Shown here piece by piece: positions 5,831 to 24,861 of a stretch of 64,000 nucleotides of DNA. Source of the stretch: Ustilago trichophora. Taxonomy: Eukaryota; Basidiomycota; Ustilaginomycetes; Ustilaginales; Ustilaginaceae. The position numbers and the translations under genes were made by a program. The DNA lies in the NCBI GenBank assembly GCA_900323505.1, contig OOIN01000001.1, positions 124,001-188,000 of the forward strand, written 5' to 3'. The number at the start of each line of letters is the position of its first letter. The stretch's first letter is position 1. Under the pieces are notes generated by a model. That model worked only from the letters and a program-made list of their open reading frames with translations, was not told the origin of the DNA and did no database searches.

Positions 5831-7057
5831 CTAAGGAGTGCCATCGCCCACAAGCGTTTCTGTGAGCGTTAGGCATCGATCAAACAGCGTCTTTGCCAGG
5901 AGGAGCCGCTCGCTCTGCTTGACCTCGTCGCTCCTGAGGGATGCAGCCTGGGAAGGAATACAATCGTGGCTGATGCGTCGCATGTAGGCTACAACCTTGC
6001 CTAAGGTCGGAGAACAAGCACAGTCAGGCGTCTCCGTAAGTTCCTCGGCCAGGAGCGTCAGAGTGGGTCTCATCGCTCGAAGGCTGGAGGGGTCTGCAAG
6101 AAGGAATTGGCACCGGCGAATAGCTTGCTTAGTGTCGATGAGCAGACCCTTGGTATAGGTAGATAGGGCTGCCTGATGCGCTGTCGATGCTGGCACCGAT
6201 GCTGCTGCTGGTACTAGTGACGGTGCTGATGTCAGTGCTGACGACGGAGATGACGCTACTGTTTCTCTGAAGCGCGGGGATGACTGCGCCACGACTGTAC
6301 TATTCTGAACGGATCTCTCTCCGACATCTAATGTAGTGCCAGTTTTGCGCTTCCGTGAAGAAAGAGAGCTGTCCAGATTACGACTCGACCATCCTACAGC
6401 TTGGCCAGCCTTCTTTTGCTTCTTTGGTTTCACCTTTCTCCGAATCTTGAAGGCTACGTCAGGTGAACAGACCCCAATACCATTGATGGTGCATTTGGTG
6501 TGTGAAAGCTGACAGTTTCGACATGCTTTTGCGGAAGACATTGAACTTGTGATGAGACACTCGAGTTCCAGCTTCAGACATCGATCGCAGGTCTCGACCC
6601 AATCTCCTTCCTGTCGCCTCGCTTTTTGCTTGCCTTTGGTAGGCGCGGCCGTGGGAGTCGGGACATGAGGGGAACTGCCCTCATCGAGAGCACCAATCAA
6701 ATCTTCCAACAGGTCGTCCGGGAAGGTTGATATGGACATGGGCGAGCTGTGCCTTGTCGAGGATCGTGTCGGAGAGTCACCACCAGAGGAGGAGCTCGCG
6801 GGTAGGCCATCTTTGCTCGAAATGAACCGACCTCGACCATATTGCAATTCGACTTCGGATGAGGGCTCTGTCGAAACTTCAGTCCTCCTTGCTGCACTTC
6901 CAGGAGGTGATGTGTGGGTGGAGAGCCAGTCAAAGATGGCTTGCTCGCCTCCAGCGGGTGAGCCTGATGTGGATGGTGTATAGTCTGGCAAGCTTGTGCG
7001 CATGCTTTTCTTGATCTTCTTTGCACGTGGCGAGCTTCTCAGGCTTGAGCTCGACAT
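5831..7057 (-). CDS. Zn2Cys6-like cysteine-cluster protein, paralogue 2
   Basis: A 408-codon frame with the same layout as its right-to-left neighbour at 3469-5259. It has a serine-rich N-terminus with a basic patch (PRAKKIKK near residue 10). A cysteine cluster at about residues 155-188 is spaced C-x2-C-x6-C-x11-C-x2-C-x6-C and preceded by D-W-V-E-T, matching D-W-V-D-A in the paralogue. A basic segment follows (KIRRKVKPKKQKK). The C-terminal helical domain starts Y-T-K-G-L, contains A-I-R-R-C-Q and ends F-D-R-C-L-T-L. The two genes lie head to tail and most simply arose by tandem duplication. The zinc-cluster spacing is visible in the sequence. DNA binding is inference, since the canonical Arg/Lys-rich loop is weak. 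Confidence 0.7.
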   Translation of the reverse strand: MSSSSLRSSPRAKKIKKSMRTSLPDYTPSTSGSPAGGEQAIFDWLSTHTSPPGSAARRTEVSTEPSSEVELQYGRGRFISSKDGLPASSSSGGDSPTRSSTRHSSPMSISTFPDDLLEDLIGALDEGSSPHVPTPTAAPTKGKQKARRQEGDWVETCDRCLKLELECLITSSMSSAKACRNCQLSHTKCTINGIGVCSPDVAFKIRRKVKPKKQKKAGQAVGWSSRNLDSSLSSRKRKTGTTLDVGERSVQNSTVVAQSSPRFRETVASSPSSALTSAPSLVPAAASVPASTAHQAALSTYTKGLLIDTKQAIRRCQFLLADPSSLRAMRPTLTLLAEELTETPDCACSPTLGKVVAYMRRISHDCIPSQAASLRSDEVKQSERLLLAKTLFDRCLTLTETLVGDGTP

Positions 7058-7887
7058 CGTTGCGAGGCGCCAAAGTGCGACGGAAGGGCGGCGTAGGTAC
7101 AGCCGTCACAAGAGGCTCGGATGAGTAGCTTAAGGGCTGGGAGCTATCAGAAGCATGTGATGTCGTGTGGTAAGGACAAGCATCAGAAGAAAAGATGCAA
7201 AGCCGGCGCTCTGTTTGCGCAGCTCAGTGTGGGTGGCTACGAGGCGCGGCAATTGAACAGATTCGATCCACCGTTGACCCGTCAGAGCTGCATATGCTTT
7301 CATGCGACGTGATTTTAGAGCTGTGGTGGGACCGCACATGGACCCCACTCGCGTGGAACCCGGTGTGTGATTATTTGTTAGAAATTCAATTTGTTCGTAC
7401 GACTTATGTTTCTTGGTTGACAATAGTGCGTCGGCCAAATGCTCTCTTAGTGTCATGTGAACCGTCCAAGAACTGGGTGGTCACATGAGAGAGTTTTTAC
7501 TTCACTTTTTTGCTCTGTAGACAAAGACTATAGCGTAGCGCTTAAGCTATAAAGGGCCGTACCCAGGTTCACAATCATGTACTTAGTTTCTCCCATCCAC
7601 TAACGCAACAAAGAACCTGTCGAGGTCGCCAGTCTTTTTGTGAAGTACGCTGATTACATTGATGTGTCACTGCACCAGAACAGCAAAAGGTTAACAATCT
7701 TTTATTATTTGCGGGCTGCAACCACACATTCCCAGCAGCGCACGGATCCCCCACTGGCTTTTGTAATCATGCACAATCAATCCCTTTCAGACTGAGATCA
7801 TCAAAGCATTGACATTCAAGTCAAAGCGAAAGAATAGTGATTGCTTCTAGCGCTATAGGATCTACAAAAAAGAGATGTGCTGGAAGT
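7058..7887. other. intergenic, no gene recognised
   Basis: Moderately AT-rich DNA. It contains a candidate TATA-type stretch (GCTATAAAGGG near 7547), but no reading frame that follows it looks real. No tRNA or repeat is recognised. Confidence 0.4.
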
Positions 7888-9159
7888 CTACAAAGCATTG
7901 CTCCATGTCTTTGCCATGGATCTAGCGATGGCAAAGGGAGGACCAAGCACGATCGCCTGCGCAACGCTAGGTGCATAGCCTGATTCAGCTTGAGACGACC
8001 AAACGGCCAAGATTGTGGACATCATGTTGGCAAAAAAGAAGAGGGGACCACCCCTCAACTCCCTGATATTTGGGGCAGCCCACTCCCACTGGCCGGCCAA
8101 GAACAAGGTGATGATCGGAGAGATGCTTTTGTTATGGCTGCCGTAAATTGCTTCGTCCGTGACGGCGGGTTTAATGAACAAAGCGGCAATCCCGGTCCAC
8201 CAGATCAGCGTCAAAAGCCAACTGACAGCTTGGAATAGGCGGACCACCAGGCGCACTCCTGCTGCTTGCTCTTTGTAAGGTGCAACGTGACTGCTTGGGG
8301 AGACACCCAACGTCAGAGGACTGATGAGAAGGGCAAGCAAGAGACCAAGAGGGAAGACCTGGTCAAGCGAAGTTACAAAACAACCCAGAGTCAGCAATCG
8401 AGATCCCTCAAGTGCCTAGGACCATCTAGACTTACCTGGAATAGGCTATTTGCCGGAATGTACACAGCATCATTCTCAGTAGGCGTCAAAAGCAGAGCAA
8501 CAAACGCCGGAGATGTGATACTGAGGACGACAAAAATCCACAGAACGTACTGCCTGGAAACGAAGTCTCTAGGTCGTTTGGACAGGTAGGCCAAATTTCT
8601 CGAAGATTTGGCGGGATCACGCACCGCAGGTACATGGGTTGGCAAGTAAAAGAGCGCCGTGGTCATGCTGAAAGTGATGGCTTGGCCAAGTGCTGCAAAC
8701 AAGAAGACTCAGAAGACCTGAGCGCTCGTCCTTGCCCTCCAAAGCTGATTCAGAATGATGGGCAGAATAAGGGCGAGGAAGAGTAGAGCAGACTGTCGTT
8801 GCCAAACGCAGAACAAGATGTGTGAGTCAAGTCAGTTCTCATCCCATACATGTAAAACCCTTCTCTCCACAGCGTGGATGTAATGCCCATCGAGCAAAAC
8901 TTACAGCCCTTCCAACTGGATACATGAGGATCTCTCTGAAAACCCCAAGCAGTACGCAAAAGGAGATGTCGGCAAGCAGAATGCCCCCACATCCGAAGCG
9001 GTCAAAGAGAGGGCCTTTCAAATACACCAAGCACTGTTTGACCAATTTGCGAGGGACTCTGCCACCTTCTGCAGCGAATCCTAGTATGATCAAGGCAATT
9101 GCGAGTGGCCTGAGCCACAACGCTTCGTTGCTTGCTGTTGACGAGACGTTTGTGGACAT
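7888..9159 (-). pseudogene. multi-pass membrane protein gene interrupted by an in-frame TGA
   Basis: Three exons fit by splice motifs and phase: 8905-9159, 8436-8792 and 7888-8358. Donors are GTAAGT at both introns, and both junctions are phase 0. Joined, they give 360 codons of a strongly hydrophobic protein with roughly nine membrane spans, ending in TAG. Exon 2 carries TGA at 8709-8711 (codon 113), between two copies of GTCTTC, with the same hydrophobic frame continuing on both sides. No intron of workable size removes it: the good acceptor TTTGCAG just downstream is out of phase with every donor I could find, and the only nearby GT would make a 25-base intron. I do not recognise the family. 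It is either a recently disabled gene or a sequencing error; readthrough or an unusual splice is less likely. An in-frame upstream Met at 9204 is possible. Confidence 0.6.
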
Positions 9160-9666
9160 GTTGTGGTCGTGAATGCAGAGATGGTGGACGAGACAAAAGT
9201 CCAACTTGTGGGTTTAGCCTTTATAGTTGTCGACAAGACCTGCAAATGCGCTGTGTCCCAGAGCTGCAGGAAGAAGCTGAGCAAGGCCTTTGACTTGATA
9301 TTGCTAGTCAAGCTTGTTCCACTACCTGAGTCTGCACAAACTGTCATAGGTGACAATGGACACATATGCTTCACAAGGGAGGACCTTGTCAGGGGTCGTG
9401 TGCCTGAGCTCAGATATCTAGCACTGAAGCTTCCTCGAGATGAGATTGAATTCGAGAATGAACCTATGGTGATTCTTGAAGTGAGACTTAGGCATGTGCC
9501 TCGCGTTGCCCGATCTCACCCACTTCGAGGACACTCGACTCCGAGAATGAGATTGGTGTTTTCTTGATGTCACTACGACTTCGAGAAAGGCCCTACTGAG
9601 ATCTTCGAGCTCAACTAACTCCTGTGAACACTCCGTTCAGAGGCGATACGGCACGATGGGCTTAGC
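9160..9666. other. upstream flank of the membrane protein gene
   Basis: A plus-strand open frame exists here (9163-9567), but it has no recognisable domain, overlaps the membrane gene's 5' end, and includes the TCGAG/GAATTC-rich motifs that recur at 10243-10294. I do not call it a gene. Confidence 0.35.
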
Positions 9667-9972
9667 TGTTGGAGTAAAGCTATATAACTGGCCACTAGGA
9701 TCAAGCACGAGTGTTCTTGATGCTCTCCAGTGGTCTTAGCCGTGGAGCGGCCTTGCTGTATATGGACTGGTTGAGGTTCCAGGCCCCGGTTGAGGTTCCG
9801 GCTGTGATTGAGGTGTCGCAGCGTCAGTGTAGGTGCTGACGATGTATAAAGACAGGCTCTCCTATACTGAGGACGAGCAGGGACTGTGAAAGGATTGCAA
9901 AGCGCTGCTATTGCAATCAGTACAACTGAGAGTGCTTACAAAGCGCAACTGAGAGGTATTCTTGATATAACA
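9667..9972 (+). mobile_element. candidate solo LTR, copia-like
   Basis: A 306-base stretch begins TGTTGGAGTAAAG and ends GATATAACA, the TG...CA pattern with TGTT/AACA ends seen in many Ty1/copia LTRs. Internally it carries a TATAAAGA promoter-like box near 9846, followed by a region of short repeats. No internal retrotransposon coding region adjoins it, and the flanking five bases do not match each other, so a target-site duplication is not confirmed. A chance match is possible. Confidence 0.3.
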
Positions 9973-11034
9973 AAAGTAAAGAGTAGAGTGGATGAGCCCT
10001 GCTCATCCCACTGCGAGTGAAGAATGAGTATATATAACCGTTCGGCCCAAGCTGAGTGCACTCAACCTGCGTGTGTACCAAGCTCGGGCCTCCTGCCAGC
10101 ATGCAACTCGCACATGCGGCTCTCCTATCGAACCATCAGGCCTGCTCGCCATCACAGATGGTGTCGAGCACCATGCCCTTTGATACCACCGAGTTGCCCT
10201 ACTCGAGACCAGTCGATCCGTGCTTTCCCGGTATCGCTTCCTGAGTTCGAGAATCCGACATACTGAATTCTCGAACTCAATTTGAGTTCGAGAGCCGAGT
10301 ACGCGTCTTTCTCGAACTGGGACTTGTGTCCTGTAACAGACCTTTGACAAGCGAGGAAAGCAATCCAGACAGCGGTGACTTTATTGCAATTGAAAATCAG
10401 TCTTTTTGGCTGACATATCTCCGATGATGGGGCGGTAACCAACCCGTCAGGGTCTGCAGGTGGTCACCTTCAACAGGTCGCTTTAAATACCCCACACTTC
10501 CACGTGTGCCATTGCCCCTTCACCGCACACTCACACTAAGATTTCCTGCAAGATTGCTGGTACCACCATATCTTATTATCTGTCTACGGGTTCCTTTCTT
10601 TACACAGAGCGAAGTGGTTCCGGTCCGATGGCTCCCTTGTGCAAGGGTCTTCATGCTTCAAACGAGTCAAAAACCTCGTCCTGTTACGTCTCTTGAGACT
10701 GCGGCACCCACAACATCTGCGTGTGGATCACTTTCCTGAACACCCTTGGTCGCCACTGTTGAAATCTTCTTATACTTCACTGCCGCCAGCTGTGATATCC
10801 AACAATGGTGTAGCTGCTTGTCATGGCGGGACCCATAGTGTAGGACTCAACAAGGTCCTCCTCATAAATAAAGTCGTTGCCTCTTTGCTGAACAGGTAGT
10901 CTAGCCACATACAGCCTCATTACCATCCTTTTGCTATGACTAAACCAGTGAGTTGTTGCGTTCCACACGTTACCAAACGGCACTGAAAGCAAGGCAGCAG
11001 AACTGATAAATTGATGTGTATTATTTAACGATGG
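9973..11034. other. intergenic, repeat-like, no gene recognised
   Basis: It contains the palindrome cluster at 10243-10294 and a TATATA stretch near 10029. Short frames on both strands lack domains and codon support. Upstream exons of the small membrane protein at 11035 could lie in the right-hand part, but none could be defined. Confidence 0.35.
10243..10294. repeat. nested inverted repeats GAGTTCGAGAAT
   Basis: GAGTTCGAGAAT (10243-10254) is followed after 12 bases by its exact complement (10267-10278), and a third copy, GAGTTCGAGAG, at 10284-10294 again faces the second. This makes two overlapping hairpins or palindromes. Related TCGAGAATGA motifs occur near 9450 and 9545, and TTCTCGAACT near 10311. 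Confidence 0.7.
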
Positions 11035-11328
11035 ATGACACAGATTCCATACAGAGCCCCCACACTGACTCTAGTTGCCAGCTTGGCCGCCATTGGGACA
11101 TGGTACTTTGCGCGTGACATTCCAGAATTCAACAACCTATTCGGTGGACCCTCTGCACTCCGGTCGCTTACTAGTGTGCTTGTCAAGATTCACCTGGCCG
11201 AGGGTGTCGCCATGCTGCTCTATTCCCTCTACAGAGGCACAGACCTCATCACAGCTGCTAAGTGGGGCGTAACCAACTTTATTGCAGGGTTCCCAACCTA
11301 CTTCAAATTCAGGAAGGTGAACGGCTAA
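11035..11328 (+). CDS. small membrane protein, DUF4499/TMEM254-like
   Basis: A 97-residue protein with hydrophobic segments near residues 8-25, 46-65 and 72-88. The pattern K-I-H-L-A-E-G-V-x(3)-Y-S-L-Y followed by A-A-K-W-G-V-T-N-F-I-x-G-F-P resembles the DUF4499 (TMEM254) family of small membrane proteins of unknown role. The ATG at 11035 lies four bases after an out-of-frame ATG that stops after nine codons, so either leaky scanning or an upstream spliced leader exon is needed. The family match is from memory of the conserved His/Trp/Gly pattern and was not searched. Confidence 0.55.
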   Translation: MTQIPYRAPTLTLVASLAAIGTWYFARDIPEFNNLFGGPSALRSLTSVLVKIHLAEGVAMLLYSLYRGTDLITAAKWGVTNFIAGFPTYFKFRKVNG

Positions 11329-11567
11329 AACCCACCTTTCACTTCCAGACTGTTGTTCAGAGTATAGAATACAGTAACTCAGTCAAGGTCGTCATCACCA
11401 GTAAATTTGATTTCTGCACAAACATCGCTTGTACTTTTTCCGCTTGTACTGTGTAGCGTGGAAGATCGATGCCAGACCTGTTTGCTTCAGGTGGCGAGCA
11501 ACCCGCCTGAGCGTGATACGAGCGTGTATGTACACAAGTTTTGTCTTCGCACGGACCGGAGAGTTAA

Positions 11568-11671
11568 GGCAAGATGGCCGAGTGGTCTAAGGCGTAGCAT
11601 TAAGGAAGATATCCTGAGCAATCAGGAAAACCTGCTATCTTCGGGCGTGGGTTCGAATCCCACTCTTGTCA
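11568..11671 (+). tRNA. tRNA-Leu(AAG) with a 26-base intron
   Basis: All arms can be drawn. The acceptor is GGCAAGA with TCTTGTC (one G-U). The D-arm is GCC/GGC with the GAGTGGTCTAA loop. The anticodon stem is TAGCA (11595-11599) with TGCTA (11633-11637), and anticodon AAG is at 11602-11604. A long class-II variable arm follows, then a T-arm GTGGG/CCCAC with TTCGAAT. The intron, 11606-11631, sits after the base 3' of the anticodon as in nuclear tRNAs. The B-box GGTTCGAATCC is intact. The discriminator is A. A genomic CCA happens to follow, then a T-rich pol III terminator. Confidence 0.95.
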
Positions 11672-12729
11672 CCATTTCTTTTTTTTTTCTTCCTTCTCCT
11701 TGAGAAGCTTTTTGAGCCGATTCTTCTGCTCGACAACCACGACGTCTCAGGACCGGTCTGTAGAAGAGTTTTGCGGATCTAAGACAATGCTTCATTGAGT
11801 GGGCAAGCTAGGATTATAATCATGCACGAAATGAAATGCACAGGCCGAAGATTTGAAGAAAAAAAGAAAAAAAAGAAAAAAACAGCTGCCGTAATGGCTC
11901 ATCTTGGTGGCAGCACAAGAGCTGCCCCGAAAGACACGAGGGTTCATTCACGTAGTCTCCGCAGCTCGCCTTCGCAGCAGCCTCAATTGCCTATAAATTG
12001 CTGAGCCAAATGTGCCACCGTAATAGTCCAAGGAACAATCTTGCTTCCGTTGAGAAGGGTTTAAGACAAATTGTGCCGTCGTTTCGAGCTTTCTCTAACG
12101 AGCGGCAACCCTGCTTCCGATTCTGTGGTTCCCGATAGAATAGCGCCCAGTCCCAAATCAGTGGAAGCGAGCAGGTTTAACCGCTGTCAACGCGTTAAGC
12201 GGTCGCTGTCACTTTTCGCGCCCCGCCTGAACCCTACGCCGAAACAAAAATACCACACGAAACCACATCACTCCCTCCCTTCGAAACGTGGTGTCTTGCT
12301 CAATCTTTAAGAAGCTGCAACCTTGGTATGTGCTGTGATCTTCGAGGTAGCCACAGGTAGTGCTGACCTACTATAGCTTCGCAGTCGATGGTGCGAACTG
12401 AACTGAGCTGCCGCCTTTTTGACCCTAGTATTTTTTTTCTTGCTCCCATTGTCTTACCAATCGCCCTGGCTGTCGACTCACAGACAATCGGTGGCACTCG
12501 ATATAGTGGAGCTTCACAACCAAGCCATAAGAACGGGGGGATCAGATGAATTTAATAAAAGATAAATTCGTGGCGAAGCTAGAAGTTAAAATAAGGACAT
12601 GAAAAGATCTGCGATGGTAGCGGCAGACACGGTTCTGCCAATGGGACTCTCTCGACCTTGCTGGACTCACACCTCGAGCACATTCGGATTTCAAGAGAGG
12701 GTCATGTCATGCAAGGTTTAGAAGGAGCC
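11672..12729. other. intergenic, no gene recognised
   Basis: Apart from the terminator at its left edge and an A-rich stretch near 11860-11882, I see no gene, RNA or repeat. The right end is the 3' flank of the secreted-protein gene. Confidence 0.4.
11676..11692 (+). terminator. pol III terminator of tRNA-Leu
   Basis: A T run (TTTCTTTTTTTTT) begins a few bases after the tRNA 3' end, the normal RNA polymerase III stop signal. Confidence 0.8.
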
Positions 12730-13648
12730 TCACCAGTCACGGTAGTGCTGCTCGGGGTCCTTGGGAGTGAACCCAATGTCGGTGACATGCCAAGTGATAC
12801 CATCCTCGCTCTTGGCCGTGGGATGGTTGTAAGTGGTCCCGTCGTCGTAAGCACAGAGCCAGCCTTTGGTGAAACTGAAGTCGGGCTGGTCGAGCTTGAT
12901 GGTAGCTTTGCCCCACTGAGCTGGGACATGGGCCGAGAAAGTGATCACCTTCATGCCCTTGGCAGGGGCATCGAACTTTTGCTGTAAGCGTACGTCAAGG
13001 GATGATCAAGTTGAGGAGTTGTAAGCTTTTATTCACTATGAGAAGAGGCTGATCCAATGCTAGCGTGTGGTATCCTTTCGAACCTACGTGAGCGCATGTT
13101 CCAGGAACAGAAGCTTTCCAGTGCTGGAGAGACGGAGCGAGACTGGCGCGGAAGGTGACGGGCTCATCCATGGCAACATTAACCGCCGTACTGTGGATGT
13201 CACTGAATTGGTTGTACTGGTGTGACACCTGAGCACAGCTAGTACCGTACTGATAGGAAGCTTGTTTGTCCTTGCAAATACGACCATTGGCCTTAGCGAC
13301 CGTTTTGCTGCATTCGGACCCGTGGTGAGTGAATTTGACGTAGTGATCCGCCTGGTCAATCTTCTCGTAATACTTGGCTGGAAAGCATTTTTTTGAGAGC
13401 AGCGATGCTGTCAGTGCGCGTCTTTACTTGCCGAGTACATAGCTTTGTAATTACTCACGAGTCAAAGTAACGCTGGCCTGATCCCAAGGACCAGCGAACT
13501 TCTTCTGAGAGCCCAAGCCTCCGAAAGACTGAAGCTCGACGTGCTCAATGTTGGCTTTGTAGGTTGACATGACACACTGCATTCGTCCCAAGGCGCTGGG
13601 AAGGAGAAAAGCGGCAGCAACTACAGCGGTCGAGATTTTAATGAGCAT
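12730..13648 (-). CDS. secreted six-cysteine protein, copy A (candidate effector)
   Basis: Three exons: 13459-13648, 13088-13377 and 12730-12981. Intron 1 has a GTGAGT donor in phase 1. Intron 2 has a GTAGGT donor in phase 0. Acceptors are CCAG and ACAG. The spliced product is 243 residues. Residues 1-21 are a signal peptide (MLIKISTAVVAAAFLLPSA then LG). Six cysteines follow, in contexts MQC, SEC, RIC, TSC, GTC and WLC, all aligned with copy B, suggesting three disulfides. Conserved blocks include L-x-P-S-L-Q-x-W, P-G-T-C-A-H, D-A-P-x-x-G-M-K-V and I-K-L-D-Q-P-D. There is no catalytic motif and no family I recognise. Secretion, small size, tandem copies and a smut-like genome make an apoplastic effector or cell-wall protein plausible. 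That role is inference. Confidence 0.8.
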
Positions 13649-14685
13649 CGTGAAGAAAACAGAAGTTTGGTGTAGAAGCAAAAGAGAAGTCTGAAGATGG
13701 GACAGTGTATGGGGAATAGAGTGTGAGCAGGGTACAGATTGTAGAGAGATGCGAAGGGCTTCAGATGATGCGATACCAGTCTATATGCCACCGGCGTGAT
13801 GAAGGGCCACTGACACTTCAGTCTGCTCAGTCGCAATGAAAACTTCCATGTTGCTGGTGAGCCGTGTCACAGCCACAGACCTGCTCAGGGGTAGCCTTCG
13901 GTGGGGCTTCTTATGTGTGCATGGTTCGGAGGTCCGTGACAATGTCGAATTTACCCACACAAAGTGGGTTGTGTGGGGCTATTCACCAGGGAGTGGCTCA
14001 CGTAGTTACCGAATCAGAGATGCTGGTCTGACGTGATGGCTTGGTTGTGACTGCGGTGTTCTCGAGCGACTGTCCCACAGATGTGTAAAAAGCCTCTGGT
14101 ACCTTGCAGGCCGTGGGTCCAGCTGCGCTACCTCGGATTTCCGATCCGGTGAGCCCACAGGTCTACGGAGGCCTGATGAGACGGTCGAAGAGCCGACATC
14201 GTCAAGAGTTCCATTCAAATCCACCCACACTGAGTCCTCTGCACCCTTTGTGCACTAGGAAAACTTTGTGCAAAACACTTCTTGCAACTATTGAACAGCG
14301 TGAAGAAGTGCCTGGAGTGGTGTTTCTTCTTTATCAATGGCCGATGGTGGACAAAGCCCGCTTCTCAACGTTGTATTTGATCACTCTCCAATAGGCACAG
14401 TCACAAATCACATCTCACTTCAGAGAAAGTCTGAGGGGAACGATGTGGATTGATGGAAAAATGAAATGATGAGAGGGACAAGGAGGCATGAGAGGAGGAC
14501 ATTGAAATACGAGAAAGAAGACAAAGGAACAAGAATGAGCGCCACTGAGCTGAAGCGCATTGCGCAACGAGCAACTGTAACTGCACGTCTTACAACTGTT
14601 GACAAAGTACGAGCACACCTATACATCCGTTACTAGGCCATATGGGTAGCTAGGAAGCGATAAGCGGTCGCTCACGCAAACGCTG
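13649..14685. other. intergenic between the tandem secreted-protein genes
   Basis: No further copy, complete or broken, of the secreted family is seen. The left part is the promoter of copy A. ACTGGTA occurs upstream of both copies (near 13778 here and near 15677 for copy B). The right part is the 3' flank of copy B. Confidence 0.4.
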
Positions 14686-15605
14686 CTAGGACGAGGGGTT
14701 ATTGGCGTAGAGAATGTAATCGAAGCGAATGTTGGAGAAAGTGAAGGTCTGCTGATCCTCAGTGTGGACTGAGAGCTGCGATGGTGCGGAGAGATCGTCG
14801 CTCTGTATGCAGCTCCAGGTCGTCGGGAACTCAGGGTCGGGCTGATCGAGCTTGACCGTGACACTAGGCCACCCGTGTCCGTATTCAGACGCGATTTTCA
14901 TAACCTTCATACCATTGTCTGGAGCATCAACGACTTGCTGTTGGGGCAGTTCAAGAATTCGAAACGAAAGTGGTTGATGTCAGTAAGCGTCACTACACGA
15001 ACTCGTCACTTCCGACCTTGAGTAGGGACTCACATGGGCGCAAGTGCCGGGAATACCGGTCCTCCAGTTCTGCAGGGAAGGCGAAAGCTTTGCGCGGAAA
15101 TGAACAGCCGAATTGGGGGCGGAGGCCGAAATGTCAAGTGACTTGCCCGTGCCCGGGCCATATCGGTACGTCCTGTGAGTCACTTGAGCACAGGTGTTGC
15201 CCAGCTGATCATCGAAGTCCGGCCCATTGCAGATGCTGTGATCAGACACGCTGACATCGCGGCAGTCATGGCCGTAGTGTCGCATGGTGATGTCGTGCTG
15301 GGCGCGGTAGTCGTTCCGTTCTAGTCAAGTCAAATGCATCGGTGATGGAGAAAAAAGTGAGCATTTTGCTGTTTTTTTCGGCAGTCATAAAGGCAAATAG
15401 GTCACTTACCCTGAATAGAAACCGTAGCCCAACGCTGATCGGCGGGGTTCTGGCTGGGCGATACGGTAGCCAGATCATGGGCCGAGAAGGCGTTAACTTC
15501 GATGATTTGGGAGTCCGTGGTTGACAGCGTGCATTCCATGGAGGCGTGTGCGCTGGACAACAGGGCGGCGGCAATGACAAGAGCCGAGGTGATCTTGATC
15601 AACAT
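14686..15605 (-). CDS. secreted six-cysteine protein, copy B (candidate effector)
   Basis: Three exons: 15410-15605, 15034-15320 and 14686-14937. Intron 1 is phase 1 (GTAAGT) and intron 2 is phase 0 (GTGAGT), at the same protein positions as in copy A. Exon 3 has exactly the same length (252 bases). The product is 244 residues with a signal peptide beginning MLIKITSALVIAAALL. Six cysteines align with copy A (contexts MEC, HDC, SIC, NTC, GTC, WSC). Shared blocks are T-C-A-Q-V-x-H, L-S-P-S-L-Q-N-W, P-G-T-C-A-H, D-A-P-x-N-G-M-K-V and V-K-L-D-Q-P-D. The two copies are head to tail and well diverged, so the duplication is not recent. Function unknown; a secreted effector is the leading inference. 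Confidence 0.8.
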
Positions 15606-16305
15606 TGTTTGCAGTGAGAATGGAGTAGAGAGATAAGAGAATTGGTGAATGATTGGTGTTGTTGGAGCAGAGGGGTTACCAGTAAAGACTGGTATTTATC
15701 CTTTTCTTGTGCACACGATGAATGGAGATTCAGCGCCTGTCATACTTGCTATCGAGGAACCTATTGGCTGTCACCACCATAGTAGGGTCACCATTGAAAC
15801 CGCCGTGTGACCAAAAGCCACCGAAATTGGTGGGTCTCTAGGGACGAAAGCGGCCCCGGCACTTGTCGGCCGTGGTATTTCTCTTCACCACGGAGGGTTT
15901 TTCGGAATGAAGTGCGACTTTGCCAGCGACAGTCTCAGACAGTCCGTCCCGCCAGAGCCACCCTCATCTCAACCCACGAGCATTTTGTGGAGCGCTGAGC
16001 GAGGCAACCCACACAAGGCTGTGCTCGTCACCGCACTCAGTCACTCGTACGTACAAAGCGTCTCAGTCGTGGTAAAAGCAGTGGCAACGGTGGGAATGTG
16101 GGATGTGATAGTAGAATACAAGGTGGCAACAGGAACAGGGTTTGCAAAACAAGGGATGATTACGTTGTAACAGCCTGCATGTCCCCACTGTGTTAGCGGG
16201 AGCTCAGGCAGGTTCTCTTTTGGGGGAAGTGGTTGTCCGAGTGAGAATGCAACTTGTGGTCGGCACTGCAGTGCGTGAACGAGCATCGATTGGTTGGCTC
16301 TGCTT
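15606..16305. other. intergenic, promoter of secreted copy B and 3' flank of the FKBP gene
   Basis: A TATA-like GATAAATA lies about 90 bases upstream of the copy B start (minus strand, near 15695). No other gene is recognised. Confidence 0.4.
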
Positions 16306-17442
16306 TTACTTGATCTCGACAAGCTTGACGTCAAAGATAAGAGTCGAGTTGGCGGGGATGCCGGGGAGCTTTTGGTTACCGTATGCAAGCTTGGCGGGGC
16401 AAGTGAGACGACGCTCAGCACCGACCTTCATGCCCTTGACACCCTCATCCCAGCCCTTGATGACCTCACCCTTGCCGAGCTTGAAGTAGAAAGGCTTGCC
16501 GCTGGTGCACTGGTCAAAGACCTTGCCGTTGGTGAGCTTTCCGACGTAGCGCATGCCGACCTTCTGGCCAGCCTTGCAAGCGGGACCGTTACCCTGGCTC
16601 TTCTCCTCAATGACGAGACCGGAGGGGAGCTTCGTGGTGGTCATCTTGGAAGAGGGCTTCTCGGCTGTCTTCTTCTCTACGGTCTCAGTCTTGGGCTTGG
16701 CCTCCTTGGGACTCTTGGTCTGCTTCTCGGTCTTGGTCTCGGCGACCTTGGTGGGGGTAGAGGTAGCGGAGGCGGAGGCGGCTTCCGCCTTGACCTTCTT
16801 AACAGGGGTCTCCTTGGCGGGCTTCTCGGCGGCGCGCTTCTTGGACTCAACAACGGGAGCCTGAATGGCCTTCTTGGGCTTGGAGGCCGAAGATTCGACG
16901 AGCTCCTCGAAGCGATCGGGATCCTCCTCCATGTCCTCATCGTCTTCATCGTCCTCGTCATCGAACTCGTCTGAGTCGAGGCCGTACATGTTGTCCTCGT
17001 CATCCTCGTCGTCAGAGTAAATCTCGTCGTCCGAGGGGTCCTGGTCAAAGTAGTCGGGAGGAGCGACGTAGTTGCCGACGAGGTCGACGGGAGCGTCGCC
17101 GGTGATGGAGAAACCGATGAGCTCCTCCTGGCAGAACTGGAGATCTACGACGGCGTGGTCCTTGTTGCTGGCATTGAGGCTGCAGAGGGTGTAGACCTTC
17201 TCCTCGACCTCATCCTCATCTGCGGCCTCCTTGGACTCCTCGTCCTCGTCCTCGTCCTCGTCGTACTCATCCTCGAAGCCGGGGACGTGGGTGTAGTGGA
17301 TCTTGACGAGGGTCTTGGTACCGGACTTGGGCTGCTCGGCGTAAGAGACGTTGGTGATCTTGAAATCTCGGGAGACGTCCATCCTGTGGACCTTGCCCGG
17401 AACGAGCTTGAGGCCGAAGAAACCGATAGGAGTGGCAGCCAT
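16306..17442 (-). CDS. FPR4: nucleolar FKBP-type peptidyl-prolyl isomerase (FPR3/FPR4 type)
   Basis: A 378-residue protein from the ATG at 17442; an in-frame Met 32 codons upstream would add an unlikely extension. It catalyses cis-trans isomerisation of prolyl bonds. In yeast the FPR3/FPR4 proteins act in the nucleolus and on chromatin as histone chaperones and on histone H3 prolines. Residues 1-100 are the nucleoplasmin-like N-terminal domain (begins [10 protein letters not shown] with V-P-G-K) interrupted by an acidic run. Residues 150-200 are a long Asp/Glu tract, residues 205-265 are Lys/Ala/Pro-rich and basic, and the last ~105 residues are the FKBP domain with [25 protein letters not shown] and [11 protein letters not shown]. 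Domain order and length match the family. No intron is needed. Confidence 0.93.
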
Positions 17443-18591
17443 CTTGACAATACAGCAGAAGTGACGATCGAGTGATGGTGTATGGATGAGGTCAGGTGGA
17501 AGATGAGGCAAGCTGAGGGCAAAAAAAGTCTGTGCCACTCATGTTCGTGTGGAATTTTTCTTCGGGTTTGACCTGCATTTCTGGAATTTTTTTTGGTGGA
17601 AGTTGGACTACTCTTCGGATCGCGGGAGTGTTCACATCGGGCGAAAATAGATCGGCGATGCCAAGACAACTCGAGATGTGAAAGCTTGGTTCCTACACAC
17701 CATCCGACTTTGGCCAAGTCGGCAGCGACATCCAACAATGGTGGCTTCTGGGAAGATTGGTTGTTACTTGATTGTGACGATTGAGGTATGAATGGTGGCA
17801 TGCGAATCAGGCGACAAATAGAGCTCTCTCATGAGATCACGAATCTAGGTGAACCGAGTTGAGAACCTTGAACCATTGAGCAGGCACGGGTATCTGGCGT
17901 GGTTCTTGCCCAGTTCGATCCTGGACGACACTTACATCTCGGACGGGTCGCATTGGCCACGATTGCCAAGGGAGTGGTTGGCGATGATAAGCGAACGTAC
18001 TGCAACGTCGCACTTCCGATGCATCGCACGTCAGAGGGTGCACGATTTTTTTTCAACAACAACTTTGGGAAGGTGGCCGCTGCAACGTAACTGCAGGGAT
18101 AATTCGCGTGTACGAAACAACTGCACACGCTGTTTGCTATCTTTGGCTATGGTTTGCACTGCAAGCGTGCAGCTCCAAAGAACACCAGTCAGAGTCAAGG
18201 CGAGACTTGAGAGAGGCAGCGCGTGCTCGGTCGTGTAAGCGATGCTCTCAGGACAATACCGACCTCGCCAAAGTAAATGCAGGTTTCGGACATCGGATCG
18301 CCTACAAACTTTTCGGTCTCGACAAGTTCCTCTGATTACACAGGCAGCTATCATCGCTTGTCTTTGGCACCTACCATCCGTCGGACGGGTGATGGGTCAG
18401 GTAAGCCGGTAGCAGGGATCACAAGAGAGCGCAAGTGTTGCTTCAAGTGTCGAACCCGACAAAACTGTATGCGACGCCGGAGAGGAAAAAGGACAAAAGA
18501 AAAAGATGACGGCGATCAAAGTGGTCAAATGGCAAAGAAAGGCACACATGAACCCTACGACATGGATCGACGATGCCGGCGTCCAAAAAGC

Positions 18592-21827: not shown

Positions 21828-24290
21828 TTATGCGCGGTTCTTGAGTAGGAGGTGCATGCCTTCTCCAACTGCTCTTGTGGATGCAAGGGTGTTTCTTGCT
21901 GCCAGCTGACCTATTTCGACGGCAGTGTTGATGATTTCGTACCACTGCGTGCCGTGCTTCTCGACAGGCGATGCATTGTTTTGTGAAAGGAGATGGGACA
22001 GCGTAGCCGTGAATGCGCCGGCAAAGCTGTCTCCGCATCCTGTTGTGTTGACCACCTCAACTTGGCCTGCCGGGATTGGGTGGTGCTGAACGCTCGTCGC
22101 ATCTATCGTGACGACGCCGTGGCGACCGACTTTGAGTAGCACTGTGGAGAAGATTTTGGCATCTACCAAAGCTTTGGCTTTCACCAGTGTTGAGGGCTCG
22201 ACAATGTTCGAAGGTATATTCGAGACAGAATCTTGGGGGGTTTTAGTTGAGTGCAGAAGGAGATCGAGATCGACACACGTCGCATGGATCTGTTCGAGCT
22301 CGACGGCGTTTGGCGTAGCAAAGGTTATCGGTTGTCTGCTAGCGTTGCTTTTGGTGGATTCGGCAAAGTGCGAAAGGATAATGGTAGATTTGGTGACGCT
22401 GGTGGGTTCGAACAGCGTTAAAATCCTCTTTCGCTCGGTGCTGTTGTAGGTTTCGCAAGCGGTGAGAAGCTCGCCTGCCTGCTGGGCGCCAATGTTGCCG
22501 TCGAAGACAATCATTTCCGGTGCTTCCTCCTCTAGCAATGCTGCCAGGTTAATATGCGAGCAAGTGGAATACAAAGCAGCTTGGCCAATATCCATATCAG
22601 CCACACCCGAGATGAGATCTCCTGAATCGTCGAGCATCAACGAGCAGACTGCCGTCCTTTCTCCGTCATCAGCAGGGGTGAATAGGCCATCTGTTCGCAT
22701 ACCTGCTTGTTGCATGCCCGTTCTTAGGAGCAGTCCAAAGTCGTCGTTTCCGTGAGGAGAGATGAGTTTGACTGGTGATGATGTGGGGCTCGGATGATGG
22801 AAGGATAGGACACGGGTCGCTGTTTCGGCCATGTTCCGTGCCACACCTCCGAGAGTGACTGATACGCGGCCGGGATATGTGGTGGCAGCGAGCTGGGAGG
22901 TGTTGCCAGCAGAGCGTGTTTGCGAGGTAATGTCGACTGCTGCTGCTCCGAAGATCAGGATTCTCGCTTTGTCTGATGATGGCTGAGTAGGGCACGAGGA
23001 AGAGAGGGATCGGTTTCAGCACTACATTTCAGGCATAGAAAGAAGTCCAAAAGGTTGAGAGTGGTTGCTTATGCGCCTTGGCTACAGGCTTTTGTGTATA
23101 TACATGTGGAAGATGGCGAGGGAGGAAGAAGGAGAGCTTAACTCACAGTCGACTGCACACCACCAAGAGCGTACGTGTTGCCAGCTTGCTGAACCTCATT
23201 TTCGATCCTATCGAGCTCGACCGCGATCTTTGCGGCTTTCTTTGCGTTGTTCACCACGAGCGCCCTGTTGCTCTTCTTGCTGTCTGGAATGAGCTCTGCG
23301 AGCCTCTTGAGCAGCCATGGGGTGACCTCCTTGCCCTTTTTGTCGATGCCTTGTTCGATGGATTCGCGCACCGCCTGCTCTACGCAGGCCTGGATCTTGG
23401 CACCGACCTCGTTCCACTCGGAGGGGATGGGGTTGGCAAAAACCTGTCCGCTCTGAAGGCCGAGTTGAGCATTGGCAAAGATGGCGGAGGCAGCTTGGGC
23501 GTCGCTGCCAGCATAGGGGACGTAGAGGCCCGAGTTAGAGGTGTAGAAGGCAGGGAACTCGCCGGTGGAGTTGAAGGTGGTGACGGAGACGCCGAACGTT
23601 TCGAGCACTTCGAGGGTGCGTGGGATGTCGAGGATAGATTTGGGACCAGAGCAGAAGACGGCGACAGGGGTGCGGCCAAGTTCTGTCAAGTCAGCAGAGA
23701 TGTCCATTGCTGAGTGAGCCAAGGAGAAGCAGGAGTGTCAGCTTTTTCATAGTCGCTCTACAACAACTGGGAGATAGAGAGGTGGTAGGGAAGGACTTAC
23801 TTGACTCAGCACCGCGGTGCACTCCACCAATACCACCCGTAGCAAAGATTGGGATGCCAGCCATGTGCGCCAGCACCATGGTGCCGCTGACTGTGGTACC
23901 ACCGACAGTACCTTTTCCTTTGGCGAGCACATGTGCGATATCCCTACGACTTGCCTTGATAGCCTGGTTCTTACTGGGATCAATGGCGCACTGAGCCAAC
24001 CTCTCTAGCTGCTGCTGATCCAACCCGACCAACGGCTTGCCGTCCAGCAAAGCGATTGTGGCTGGAACAGCGCCATTGTCGACCACGGTCTGCTCGAGCT
24101 CCTGTGCTACCTCGAGGTTGAGTGGGTAGGGCAAGCCGTGTGTGATGATGGTCGATTCGAGCGCTACGACAGGAGCCCTTGTGCTGGGGGTCAACGCCGA
24201 TCGAACAGCTGGTGAGAGCGAGAGCGTAGGGTGAGGCGTGCGTTTGAGCGCCTGCGCTGCTTGGCGCAGCATCCGTGTGGATCGAACCAT
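21828..24290 (-). CDS. bifunctional pseudouridine-5'-phosphate glycosidase / pseudouridine kinase
   Basis: Three exons: 23801-24290, 23147-23709 and 21828-22982. Intron 1 is phase 1 (GTAAGT) and intron 2 is phase 0 (GTGAGT). The frame joins to 735 residues. The N-terminal half is the PsuG (YeiN) glycosidase, which splits pseudouridine 5'-phosphate to uracil and ribose 5-phosphate. Motifs are [47 protein letters not shown], spanning intron 1, and [10 protein letters not shown]. The C-terminal half is a PfkB-family kinase that makes the substrate: [10 protein letters not shown] at its start and [12 protein letters not shown] with the catalytic Asp near the end. Bacteria encode these as separate genes; fungi such as S. 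pombe also carry the fusion. A possible mitochondrial-type presequence (R-rich, residues 1-30) precedes the first domain. Confidence 0.92.
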
Positions 24291-24861
24291 TTTGAGGATG
24301 AAGAAGGGTGAAGAAGGGAGGAGAGATGCGATTTCTGATCCCCTCGCCAAGCCCCCTTATATGCTCCTTGCTGATGAGAAATGGTGAAGTGGCTTGTTCG
24401 GGAAGGAAGAAGGATTCTATGAGCCGTCGATCCGACCTTCCCCACGTCCACAAAAAGAAGCTCAACCGTTGGTCTGGGATAGCGGAAAGGAGCAATAACG
24501 GCACCTCGGTCCTGTTCCCTTTTTTTGGACTCTCGAAACAAATTCGCCGAACATTCAAACAACACGCGTGGAAGGAAGATCGGAAGCTCGGTTCACCATA
24601 CAGCAAGAGGCCGCGATTGGCTTGCAGTCTCTCTTTTACCGGAACATGGCAGCAAGTTCCCCACGTCTGGTCTCTAACTCGGTGCTCTGCAGGGTAGCTT
24701 ATCGCTGATCGGACACGATACGATGCACACACTTTGGCTCAATTGGGCTGATTGTGGCAAAAAGCTTCTATTGCAAGTGAGCCGATGGGAGCCTTGAATG
24801 AAACAAAAGAGGGTTTGGCTCGGCTCTTCTACCGGACGACGGACGTCGATGCGAGAGAAGC

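Follow-up and report, generated by a model that had tools for sequence, protein, structure and literature searches.

The 64,000-nucleotide (nt) stretch of Ustilago trichophora DNA analyzed here (contig OOIN01000001.1; hereafter the window, in which positions are given) carries a tandem pair of genes, A and B, whose products belong to the smut family of lectin-like protein 1 (Llp1). We call C1 the chromosome copy holding the window and C2 the second copy found in the assembly. Gene A (UTRI_00065_B) occupies 12730-13648 on the minus strand; it is an Llp1-family paralog encoding 243 amino acids (aa) with the leader, deposited as protein P0001. Gene B (UTRI_00066_B), at 14686-15605 on the same strand, belongs to the clade of Llp1 itself and encodes 244 aa with the leader (deposited protein P0003). 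Both genes are intact, lie head to tail and comprise three exons each. The first exon (13459-13648 in A, 15410-15605 in B) carries the leader peptide and the first cysteine and ends in phase 1; the second (13088-13377 and 15034-15320) carries cysteines 2 to 5 and ends in phase 0 after GTCAH; the third (12730-12981 and 14686-14937) measures 252 nt including the stop codon and holds DAPAKGMKV in A or DAPDNGMKV in B, together with KLDQPD and cysteine 6. Intron 1 (81 nt in A, 89 nt in B) is in phase 1 and intron 2 (106 and 96 nt) in phase 0 in both genes, and every intron is of the GT...AG type. The two deposited proteins contain all exon translations in order, leaving only the split-codon residue uncovered.

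An earlier note on this DNA had proposed a tandem paralogous pair sharing one exon plan, and the three exons, common intron phases and equal last exons bear this out. Its description of the proteins holds as well. Behind a leader of 22 residues we count 221 residues in A and 222 in B (about 222 had been claimed); the six cysteines said to be equivalent are aligned (residues 25, 86, 98, 111, 158 and 203 in A; 25, 85, 96, 109, 159 and 204 in B); and the blocks PGTCAH, DAPxxGMKV and KLDQPD were located in both. 'Paralogous yet well diverged' is also apt, with 36% identity between A and B over 236 columns and a BLASTP E value of 1.9e-41, far beyond chance. In each protein a hydrophobic stretch of 15 residues starts at residue 2, with a mean hydrophobicity of 2.23 (A) and 2.31 (B); past residue 22 the maximum is 0.57 and 0.95, respectively.

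Searching the spliced proteins against protein and structure databases, as the note had suggested, identified Llp1 of Ustilago maydis (UMAG_00027), whose crystal structure is entry 9H9S of the Protein Data Bank (PDB) (PMC11857070). With phmmer, A and B match chain 9h9s_A at E values of 3.4e-35 and 6.5e-52, nearly the whole mature proteins being covered. We also built a profile from A, one further relative, and pieces of three more genes, namely B and the C2 copies of A and B; the first-exon pieces of B and its C2 copy, misplaced by MAFFT, were left out, and their exon 2 + 3 pieces were shortened at the start. Against the PDB, this profile matched one chain, again 9h9s_A (E 6.6e-58); among proteins it found 11 at E <= 10, U. 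maydis Llp1 included. The profile and the whole proteins were what revealed the family: on its own, A's approximate exon 2 had no match in the PDB, and protein searches with A's exon-2 frame or with A alone returned A itself, plus one relative in the latter case. Pfam gave nothing for six approximate exon pieces (E <= 1) or for whole A (E <= 10); a sub-threshold match of the relative P0002 to the AXH domain (E 0.12 in a search at E <= 10) was ignored. For the predicted models of both A and B, 9H9S is the first-ranked solved structure. A and B are members of a known smut family; because they match Llp1, the pair extends that family and opens no new one, contrary to the note's view that the proteins carry no known family signature. 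Membership in the Mig1 family of U. maydis was our initial guess and was given up once the Llp1 match appeared. Mig1, compared by description only, is a comparable family of smut effectors: it contains tandem duplicates and diverges strongly while conserving disulfide-forming cysteines. Four conserved cysteines are described for its 13 members, as against six here (PMC12503489).

The Llp1 family is reported from smuts only, which agrees with the note's claim of lineage specificity, and the published description of Llp1 gives it six conserved cysteines that come with three disulfides, a leader of 22 residues and the fold of a concanavalin-like sandwich (PMC11857070). A and B resemble it in their comparable length, leader peptide, six aligned cysteines and predicted fold, at 35.8% (A) and 41.5% (B) identity. 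They differ in their genomic setting: for U. maydis, no further protein highly identical in sequence to Llp1 is reported (PMC11857070), whereas here two diverged tandem genes lie on each of two chromosome copies, and A falls in another clade. By sequence, the genome holds four clear Llp genes, namely A and B on C1 and a copy of each on C2. Each of the four shares this exon plan and has six cysteines, which are also present in the Llp1 construct; P0006, a partial relative that begins inside the protein, keeps cysteines 2 to 6. N-glycosylation sequons vary: the tagged Llp1 construct has two, P0002 three, P0006 two, and P0001, P0003 and P0004 none. A further weak match to exon 2 lies at C2:1861967-1862215 (E 0.39, 31%).

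We computed two separate trees, for exon 2 (eight rows) and exon 3 (nine rows), both without P0010 and rooted at the midpoint. An A clade is split from a B clade that includes U. maydis Llp1, with support of 100/100 (exon 2) and 100/99 (exon 3); most other forks stay unresolved, and one row of the exon-2 tree is very long. Relatives of both types come from contigs of equal stated size: 7,984 bases for P0002 (A type) and P0006 (B type), and 7,296 bases for P0007 and P0008 (A type) as well as P0009 and P0011 (B type). Taking equal size to mean the same contig, the A/B pair is probably side by side on those two contigs as well. In P0002 and P0006 the residues run from exon 2 into exon 3 without a break, which suggests, at the protein level, that intron 2 is absent from their genes. 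Should the midpoint root be correct, the duplication would be older than the split from U. maydis, and type A would have been lost there. No type A relative from U. maydis is among the proteins of the profile search; this proves little, since no protein of S. reilianum was listed either, a species in which a homolog is named (PMC11857070).

The whole window (1-64000) has a collinear second copy in the 38.8-Mb assembly, at C2:138169-203768, whose aligned pieces are 73-86% identical at the DNA level. RNA polymerase second-largest-subunit domains give five matches in the assembly. The assembly looks as if it came from an interspecies hybrid or from a culture containing two species; among the paper titles listed in our literature searches, none concerned such an origin. 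Gene B is adjoined by a minus-strand gene (16309-17538) for an FKBP-type peptidyl-prolyl isomerase with a nucleoplasmin-like domain, whose C2 counterpart stands in the same order. Beyond gene A lies a plus-strand tRNA gene at 11568-11671 (48.7 bits against Rfam RF00005, missed by ARAGORN), whose size of 104 bases suggests that it contains an intron. Between the tRNA gene and the Llp pair, C2 holds two extra frames of 370 and 269 aa (C2:148371-152911, versus window 11687-12558); the 370-aa frame is short-chain dehydrogenase-like by eye, and the two have no C1 match in a whole-genome search (E 1e-20 and 1e-10). Some 780 bases upstream of gene A (13656-14436) give no C1/C2 alignment at E 1e-20, unlike the DNA upstream of gene B, which aligns. 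The earlier note had placed the pair in a region with repeats and an interrupted gene. A scan of 7000-16500 for repeats of at least 20 bases did not bear out the former: it gave one direct repeat, whose two copies fall in A's exon 3 and B's exon 1, respectively, and a single, imperfect inverted repeat of 37 nt. The interrupted gene possibly corresponds to three adjoining hydrophobic frames of 105-175 aa at 7888-9213 on the minus strand, which are perhaps parts of one intron-containing membrane-protein gene, or a broken gene.

Divergence between C1 and C2 was measured as Nei-Gojobori dN/dS (nonsynonymous over synonymous rates), with the leader excluded for the Llp pairs; such values carry no site-level information and are no test of selection. 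The background consisted of 23 neighboring open reading frames (ORFs) of at least 250 codons with a C2 match at E <= 1e-20, weaker overlapping frames having been dropped. The Llp pairs were aligned exon by exon with MAFFT and the neighbors by tblastn, so that the comparison between them is not strictly like for like. Median values for the neighbors are 89.4% identity, dS 0.40 and dN/dS 0.12. The A pair has 161 of 219 residues identical (73.5%), with dS 0.58 and dN/dS 0.31; the B pair has 108 of 221 (48.9%), with dS 0.81 and dN/dS 0.49. B is thus less conserved than all 23 neighbors, of which just one exceeds its dN/dS, whereas A is less marked, three neighbors being less conserved and four having a higher dN/dS. 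A dN/dS of 1.31 (192 codons) comes from the ORF at 23983-24738, possibly a poor frame. The values of both Llp pairs show net constraint.

By analogy with U. maydis, we favor, with a probability of about 75%, the explanation that A and B are non-catalytic coat proteins of the hyphal surface. Llp1 is reported to coat U. maydis hyphae on an artificial surface and in planta, and was not seen on plant tissue (PMC11857070). Wall decoration, expression in planta, the three disulfides and the lack of a virulence phenotype are all carried over from that species. If the U. trichophora proteins behave as Llp1 does, they would be exported through the secretory pathway and oxidized there, yielding beta-sandwiches with three disulfides as staples. 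An open face of the sandwich might then hold them on the fungal cell wall, which they would mask or organize while the fungus grows in the plant, and the two copies may overlap in role. In U. maydis, UMAG_00027 is listed as one of six secreted proteins whose mobility changes when the disulfide isomerase Pdi1 is mutated; it also belongs to the four of these that are altered in a gls1 mutant as well (PMC6881057).

Several observations weigh against this explanation. Thermophoresis on U. maydis Llp1 is reported to have revealed no sugar or metal ligand, and deletion of the gene no measured change (PMC11857070), so that a wall coat would be a function without proven ligand or phenotype. The six-cysteine plan is not kept throughout, since P0002, a type A relative that is also partial, lacks the second and fifth cysteines; a disulfide between these two would fit their joint loss. 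Finally, model A is of modest confidence, with a mean predicted local distance difference test (pLDDT) score of 62.8, and the other four models score 40-52; the folding alignment of A left out P0008, P0009, P0010 and P0011, and that of B left out P0008, P0009 and P0010.

The earlier note saw candidate effectors in the pair, and the proteins may be directed at the host, in the apoplast or after uptake by the plant cell, where they would bind a plant protein and diverge in an arms race. The low identity and high dN/dS of the B pair fit this idea, as do secretion-type leaders, restriction to smuts and the Llp1 transcript, reported among the most abundant in U. maydis 4 days after infection; to its authors, many effector criteria apply to Llp1 (PMC11857070). 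However, dN/dS is below 1 in both pairs, A is less unusual than B, and the U. maydis protein was seen on hyphae and can be deleted without loss of virulence. What stands of the note's proposal is therefore the infection-induced, effector-like profile of Llp1, whereas the wall location and the silent deletion speak against it; a host-acting role of A and B is unproven, and we consider it quite unlikely. The same deletion, with virulence, mating and stress tests all reported as unaffected (PMC11857070), would also fit general-use wall proteins acting outside plant infection, for instance in filamentous growth linked to mating or against microbial competitors. The authors of the Llp1 study raise contact with other organisms (PMC11857070), and um00027 is one of 11 genes that the b mating-type complex is described to induce in an Rbf1-independent way, and alone among them lacks a b-binding motif (PMC2916880). 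The abundance of the transcript during infection argues the other way, and we regard this explanation as unlikely. The pattern TGA-N4-TGA, counted as a candidate site for a mating-type regulator, occurs 56 times versus 52 expected; its spacing is probably wrong, and the count was not used.

Alternatively, A and B may be secreted enzymes that cut proteins or glucans. Next after Llp1, the best solved folds for model B are glutamic peptidases, that is, neprosin (PDB 7ZVC, 9QR8) and eqolisins (2IFR, 1S2B), which for model A are tied with a GH16-containing chain. A double-sheet sandwich is common to these enzymes and the Llp pair, but identity in the fold alignments is 6-13%. The catalytic motif of GH16 glucanases, ExDxE or ExDxxE, is absent from all 11 family proteins, some of them partial, and so are two galectin-type patterns. 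No ConA lectin is among the 50 fold matches listed per model, which excludes nothing. An invariant Glu was found in no family-alignment column with at least six rows, residues not being mapped onto the peptidase active site; the Llp family thus has no conserved catalytic dyad. Of the active-site residues, only the catalytic Glu is described as shared by neprosin and eqolisin (PMC9343461). The Peptidase_A4 and Neprosin profiles had no match in this genome at E <= 1, absences that are weak because the controls largely failed (2 of 14 for Peptidase_A4, both under the cut-off, and 0 of 14 for Neprosin). Altogether, we find an enzymatic role very improbable. A bolder hypothesis combines fold and phylogeny: A would found an undescribed second Llp clade, through a tandem duplication that predates the split of several smut lineages and was followed by loss from U. 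maydis, and the whole family would be a catalytically dead sandwich of the glutamic-peptidase type, with a peptide or protein as ligand and not a sugar. We hold this combination to be rather doubtful.

The Llp1 family itself is already described; new here are its arrangement as a tandem pair, the existence of a second clade and the ranking of folds. Two otherwise uncharacterized smut proteins gain a family and a template, and the fold ranking puts the label 'lectin' of Llp1 in question. Our results suggest that Llp1, which has been studied in U. maydis as a single gene, elsewhere forms half of a tandem pair. This pair bears on why the single deletion of Llp1 shows nothing, and U. trichophora is a species where both halves could be removed together.
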